Below, piece by piece: positions 9,531-32,536 of a DNA stretch of 32,536 bases. Position numbers and translations under genes: made by a program. Source of the DNA: Alphaproteobacteria bacterium. Lineage in GTDB: Bacteria; Pseudomonadota; Alphaproteobacteria; Micavibrionales; Micavibrionaceae. How positions within the stretch are numbered: position 1 is the first letter of the stretch; each line of letters starts with the position of its first letter. The notes below the pieces were generated by a model. The model did no database searches and was not told where the DNA came from. It was given only the letters and a program-made list of their open reading frames with translations. The stretch spans positions 1 to 32,536 of the forward strand of contig SKGD01000108.1 in assembly GCA_007117665.1 (NCBI GenBank). Direction: 5' to 3'.

Positions 9531-9549
9531 CGATAGAGTCCCCTCAACT

Positions 9550-9688
9550 GTCATCCCCGCGCGGGGGCGGGGATGACAAAAAACCTCCCCTGTCATGCCC
9601 GCGGTGAGCCGTCAGGCGAACTTAGACAGCGGGCATCCAGAAAAGTGGCGGCAATCAGCGTGGATCCCCGCGCGGAGGCGGGGATGAC
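9550..9688. repeat. Dispersed intergenic hairpin repeat, copy C (composite)
   Basis: Perfect hairpin GTCATCCCCGC-gcgggg-GCGGGGATGAC (9550-9577), then CCCGCGGTGAGCCGTCAGGCGAACTTAGACAGCGGG, then GGATCCCCGC-gcggag-GCGGGGATGAC. Confidence 0.9.
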
Positions 9689-9706
9689 GGGAAATGAGGC
9701 AAAACT

Positions 9707-13481: not shown

Positions 13482-13544
13482 GCGGCAGCGATGAGCGAGG
13501 ATCCCCGCTGTTAAAGCTCGCCTAACGGCGTGCCGCGGGGATGA
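13482..13544. repeat. Dispersed intergenic hairpin repeat, copy D
   Basis: GGATCCCCGCTGTTAAAGCTCGCCTAACGGCGTGCCGCGGGGATGAC; shares core (CCCGCTGT-TAA-GTTCGCCTGACG) with copies B and C. Confidence 0.85.
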
Positions 13545-13631
13545 CAAAAAAGGAGCAAAATGTACAAACCTGTACATGAGCCCCATACATGAGCGACGAA
13601 GCAACATAGTCACGATTGAAAGAGAAAAGCG

Positions 13632-14787: not shown

Positions 14788-15062
14788 TAGGGTCAAAACT
14801 CACAGTTTTCATCCATTCTGCGCGAGTCAAATTTTCAGGGGATGTTTGTAAAAAGCGCGCAGAGCATAGCCGTAGCTATGGCCAAGCGATTTGAGCAAAC
14901 AGACACGAAAATTTGCCGCGCCCTTTCGGGTGGCAAAACAAAAAGAAATTAGCATCATTTTTCCCGCTTGAATATGCTTTGGCATGTCCCGCGCGTGAAA
15001 AATTTGCTCCTTTCTTTTTGTTTTGTCACAGAATTGTATGAAAGCTGTGAGTTTTGACCCTA
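14788..15062. mobile_element. MITE/foldback-like element, complete copy
   Basis: TAGGGTCAAAACTCACAG (14788-14805) and its exact reverse complement CTGTGAGTTTTGACCCTA (15045-15062); internal inverted repeat GGCAAAACAAAAAGAAA / TTTCTTTTTGTTTTGTC; second copy at 32421-32536; no transposase ORF. Confidence 0.88.
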
Positions 15063-32420: not shown

Positions 32421-32536
32421 TAGGGTCAAAACTCACAGTTTTCATCCATTCTGCGCGCGACGCGCCCTTTCGGGTGACAAAACAAAAAGAAATTAGCATC
32501 ATTTTTCCCGCTTGAATATGCTTTGGCATGTCCCGC
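32421..32536. mobile_element. MITE/foldback-like element, second copy, truncated by window edge
   Basis: TAGGGTCAAAACTCACAGTTTTCATCCATTCTGCGCG identical to 14788-14824, and CCCTTTCGGGTGACAAAACAAAAAGAAATTAGCATCATTTTTCCCGCTTGAATATGCTTTGGCATGTCCCGC nearly identical to 14921-14992. Confidence 0.85.

Follow-up and report, generated by a model that had tools for sequence, protein, structure and literature searches.

A 275-bp MITE of the Micavibrionales with putative IS5-family ends and a paired-hairpin core conserved across Alphaproteobacteria

The 275-bp element at positions 14,788-15,062 of the window (the whole stretch of 32,536 nucleotides analyzed here) is, as judged from sequence, a real MITE, whose putative IS5-family partner rests on its ends and on relatives of the matching insertion sequence (IS) and whose paired-hairpin core is unusually conserved: nearly all the letters of this core change across Alphaproteobacteria while its shape is kept. 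Very probably, it is a non-autonomous, IS5-family MITE, putatively IS427-like, and it is most likely moved by an IS5-family enzyme. The host belongs to the order Micavibrionales, which we take to be relatives of a predatory bacterium.

Results

Comparison of ends delimits the complete MITE from TA to TA (14,788-15,062, + strand). Its 18-bp perfect terminal inverted repeat (TIR), TAGGGTCAAAACTCACAG, lies at 14,788-14,805 (+ strand) and recurs as its exact reverse complement at 15,045-15,062 (- strand), the two forming the 5' and 3' strands, respectively, of a stem designated P1; the inverted repeat of the ends reaches 28 nt at 93%. A scan of the window for TAGGGTCAAAACTCACAG with at most 3 mismatches, which bears out the perfect repeats reported in the first-pass annotation of this DNA, returned 3 sites (both MITE ends and 32,421) against 0.02 expected. 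That annotation was equally right in seeing no transposase gene in the element, as none of the ORFs contained in 14,788-15,062 reaches 60 aa. Short, devoid of a transposase, bounded by TIRs and multicopy, the 275-bp element displays the properties by which bacterial MITEs are recognized. On the - strand, the left TIR reads in frame into both neighboring genes (RAEWMKTVSFDP), which was taken as chance.

The family is well represented in its own genome (147 contigs, 1.77 Mb), where 33 separate places match it and at least 14 copies are complete and TA-ended, in agreement with the proposal that further copies would have both ends conserved. As some of the fragments at the edges of contigs may represent two parts of a single copy, ~24 copies is a safe minimum. 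Three forms are found: the 275-bp form, complete on contigs C123, C94, C122 and C113; a 184-bp form devoid of element positions 38-129, complete on C144, C18 and C101; and a second subfamily, which measures ~274-276 bp and has TAGGGTCAGACCTCATTC as its ends, a left half that is ~80% alike and a different right hairpin. The segment at the right edge of the window, earlier described as near-identical to the 275-bp element, is indeed a second copy (32,421-32,536, + strand) but one of another type, namely the 184-bp form, in which positions 38-129 are missing; the end of the contig truncates it, and it precedes the ATG of a biotin-carboxylase gene (- strand) by 11 bp. The copies are 95-99% identical, and recent, if undated, activity of the family is plausible. 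No plasmid match was found for the element. Elsewhere in this genome (G000), a 29-bp remnant (L051, 1499-1527 of C95) consists of two fused TIRs with the TA boundaries kept, and in a 127-bp element (L117, 309-435 of C124) the MITE ends enclose a TGTCATGCCCGCC...GGCGGGAATCC REP instead of the arms.

All complete copies in the own genome have TA at both ends; the bases outside differ, and the flanks have nothing in common beyond this dinucleotide. When the flanks of one copy (L004) are joined with one TA, they align without a break, at 70%, to G003, a sister genome that has GCCTAGGTACC at this site, with a single TA within CTAG, in a stop codon. The site of another copy (L010) is also empty in a sister genome (G001), and copy positions differ between sister species. 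Of the empty sites with a single TA which the first-pass annotation had proposed to look for, the family thus offers one, that of L004; no alignable empty site was found for the window copy (14,788-15,062). The TA-only ends and the uninterrupted L004 site support the suggestion that the outermost TA is a target-site duplication of this MITE family, with positions 14,788-14,789 and 15,061-15,062 as its two probable halves in the window copy. The same dinucleotide was duplicated by the IS427-group IS ISPsp10 in a trap experiment (PMC4133298). At L004, the first TAG of the element is the stop codon of the neighboring gene, and L010 appears similar; a stop codon supplied in this manner could render such insertions harmless.

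Near-variants of the MITE TIR were found to mark contig ends in the own genome. Seven left contig ends consist of TAGGGTCTAAACACACAG followed by MRHFYLSDSQWEAIRPH, the start of coding, and seven right contig ends of TAGGGTCCAGACTCACAG, preceded by the C-terminus LKDWRRVATRYDKLARNFFAAICLASLLCFWI. The presence of these 7 left and 7 right IS ends at contig breaks is indicative of an unassembled multicopy IS, the copies of which would account for many breaks of the assembly. This IS5-family IS is known here from its ends alone, its full copy being unassembled, and these ends match those of the MITE at 16 of 18 positions. A full-length IS with MITE-like TIRs and a transposase, the existence of which had been envisaged earlier, has counterparts in other Micavibrionales in the form of IS5_3-type relatives complete with both ends (846 bp in G070, 830 bp in G094, 833 bp in G008 and 847 bp in G044). 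The left end of the 846-bp IS, TAGGGTCTAAACTCACAG, differs from the MITE end at 1 position, and the C-terminus encoded by this IS reads LKDWRRVATRYDKLARNYLAGLCLAALLCYWI. In related ISs (G044, G023), PF13340 (DUF4096, IS4/5; ORF A) is encoded in one frame and PF01609 (DDE_Tnp_1; ORF B) in another, with assignment to NCBIfam NF033580 (IS5_3). The TAGGGTC ends, the TA duplication and the two-frame transposase of the ~830-850 bp ISs of related genomes are all reminiscent of the IS427 group of the IS5 family. The IS5-like ISs of two genomes outside the order (G324 and G142) and an IS in one genome within it (G013) have ends unlike those of the MITE, and none of the IS ends found in non-order genomes matched.

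The IS5 transposase would be supplied by a full-length IS of this genome; it may bind the TAGGGTC ends of the MITE and then cut, whereupon the MITE would be inserted at a TA that becomes duplicated. We infer this mechanism because of the identity of the ends, the TA flanks and the uninterrupted site.

As a single strand, the whole element folds at -130.6 kcal/mol (z = -13.7) into a single cloverleaf-like unit made of stem P1 (the TIRs plus ATTCTG/CAGAAT), a left hairpin arm (14,820-14,923, + strand), a mini-hairpin, P3 (CCCTTTCGGG; 14,921-14,930, + strand), placed between the arms by the fold, and a right hairpin arm (14,930-15,029, + strand). The right arm contains the subterminal foldback of the first-pass annotation (14,930-14,961 with 14,998-15,029, 81% complementary over 32 nt); beyond that foldback, the left half is a hairpin as well. 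P3 shows compensatory variants in relatives (CCTG..CAGG, CCG..CGG), and the second subfamily, in which another hairpin replaces the right arm, folds to the identical plan. In ~12 elements, the left-arm model (R1, below) also fits the right arm, on the opposite strand, which makes the whole element a nested palindrome and gives the two arms the head-to-head layout expected of CGTC REPs. The interior does not consist of degenerate IS sequence: the IS5-family IS and the MITE have only their TIRs in common, the MITE interior being made of unrelated hairpins. In the genome richest in copies (G121, 22 copies), L181, L184, L186, L189, L193 and L195 are longer versions of ~305-337 bp in which the right arm is enlarged; for L186 and L189, delineation gave ~358 bp, the ends being uncertain.

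A covariance model, R1, built on the left arm and matching positions 14,816-14,931 of the window, identified relatives in 24 of the 142 genomes of the order, across five families and with up to 22 copies per genome, and, beyond the order, in 12 genomes of a 385-genome sample of the class; Micavibrio sp. SAT33 is among the pattern matches. Most matches outside the order fold to the same plan and have unrelated TIRs (e.g., TAGAGCATGATC, CTAGCCCGGATT), indicating that the TIRs differ between lineages while the fold of the arms persists. In an independent MAFFT alignment of 11 sequences, 92% of cells pair and 19 of 36 pairs are changed on both sides compared to a shuffled mean of 7.3; no shuffle reaches 19, and sliding the partners by 1-3 columns leaves 2-5 such pairs. 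A larger alignment, fitted to the model and mixing both arms, agrees on this covariation. No Rfam family was found above gathering score for the element.

The arms further bear a likeness to CGTC REPs, which are mainly alphaproteobacterial, mostly head-to-head and of which the CGTC-1 type was reported in Micavibrio aeruginosavorus (Di Nocera 2013, PMC3733652). Outside the order, 9 of the 11 left arms sampled have YGTC at the inner stem, usually with TCC on the other side, and the YGTC tags of the arms face inward. The likeness extends to the layout and the host group and, in part of the arms, to the unpaired CGTC/TGTC tag at one end and the CC tail at the other that mark these REPs. The arms differ from CGTC REPs in that they sit inside a 275-bp TA-bounded element, in that GCTC or GTTC tags, with TCA or TTA, are common in left arms inside Micavibrionales, and in that the first stem bases are AA, GA or GC, the 8-9 bp stem of CGTC REPs starting with complementary AT; because the AT-first stem is absent, we do not claim membership of this class. 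Canonical YGTCATNCCCGC motifs occur 10 times in the window, compared to 2.1 by chance. CGTC- or TGTC-tagged REP motifs lie at 9549-9602, 9678-9689, 13,535-13,546 and 1787-1836 (the last read by eye), some of them facing each other.

Discussion

The TA duplication, which is typical of IS630/Tc1-mariner elements, had led the first-pass annotation to suggest mobilization of that type, and IS630-type DDE_3 genes are indeed present in 22 of the 142 genomes of the order. However, the own assembly yielded no DDE_3 transposase, no TAGGGTC-ended inverted repeats were found around the DDE_3 loci fetched from the order, and it is a multicopy IS5-family IS that has matching ends in the own genome. An IS630 partner was rejected on these grounds, and movement of the element by such a transposase appears highly improbable. 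We attribute as little probability to the view that the arms are REP dimers of the CGTC type, that a REP-associated tyrosine transposase placed them and that the TIRs are secondary. The YGTC tag and TCC tail that prevail in the left arms sampled from beyond the order, the head-to-head arrangement of the arms and the report of CGTC-1 REPs in a Micavibrio species would be in keeping with such an origin; yet the mobile unit is bounded by TA and TIRs in the delineated copies, the stems start with AA, GA or GC rather than AT, and CGTC REPs showed no association with transposases in the 2013 survey, which stated their dispersal to be unresolved (PMC3733652). An IS5-family transposase acting on the TIRs is therefore the mobilizing agent that we retain as most likely.

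What maintains the fold is a separate matter. Somewhat in preference to other readings, we regard it as functional cargo or as an aid to transposition that has been maintained while carried by successive IS5 ends; that it is kept through several alphaproteobacterial families with differing TIRs suggests that the cargo, rather than an IS remnant, is what persists. The fold would probably act as a folded RNA or a cruciform in intergenic regions, comparably to ERIC, Correia/NEMIS and REP dimers. It is less probable, if still conceivable, that the interior is a gene leader or a regulatory RNA with a conserved structure, and that its mobility is incidental, given that the arms covary strongly and are conserved class-wide and that many copies, including both of those in the window, lie near a gene start. 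Against it, the whole element folds with equal stability on both strands (32 of 64, p = 0.84), the copies occupy different positions in sister species, and Rfam holds no such family; furthermore, an apparent bias in orientation to genes (34 vs 10) was dropped because right flanks were shorter, equal flank lengths giving p values of 0.03-0.2. The element being symmetric, folding energy cannot tell the strands apart, and since both fold equally well an RNA-level action stays putative. At the level of the arms, a G-U excess of 31 vs 12 was obtained from related sequences with a model that permits G-U pairs, and the favored strand reverses in the other arm. This weak G-U/A-C tilt with opposite directions in the two arms, the absence of strand asymmetry and the nested palindrome itself would all be in keeping with compensatory changes that arose from template-switch correction of quasi-palindromes during replication instead of selection on the fold. 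As a full account of the data we consider template switching doubtful: it could yield part of the covariation, and the mismatched internal loops and tags (YGTC...TCC), which were kept across lineages and not corrected to perfect palindromes, argue against its being the whole cause.

Bacterial MITEs tend to be viewed as remnants of ISs that are short-lived and restricted to a lineage. Like the present element, ERIC, Correia/NEMIS, Nezha and further MITEs of bacteria are small, TIR-bounded, intergenic, strongly folding and non-coding; unlike them, the element described here has a probable IS5 partner, two facing arms with a mini-hairpin, and a fold conserved across the class while its TIRs change. 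The RIME and Sm repeats of rhizobia, likened by description only, are also large intergenic palindromes of Alphaproteobacteria. To our knowledge, no transposase has been assigned to CGTC-type palindromes. We tentatively put forward that IS5-family transposases disperse, or once dispersed, these palindromes by moving TIR-bounded elements of which they form the head-to-head interior, and that the paired-hairpin core might be an ancient selected module whose TIRs changed repeatedly between ISs across Alphaproteobacteria. The MITE described here would provide both an IS5-family partner and a testable link to the CGTC REPs.
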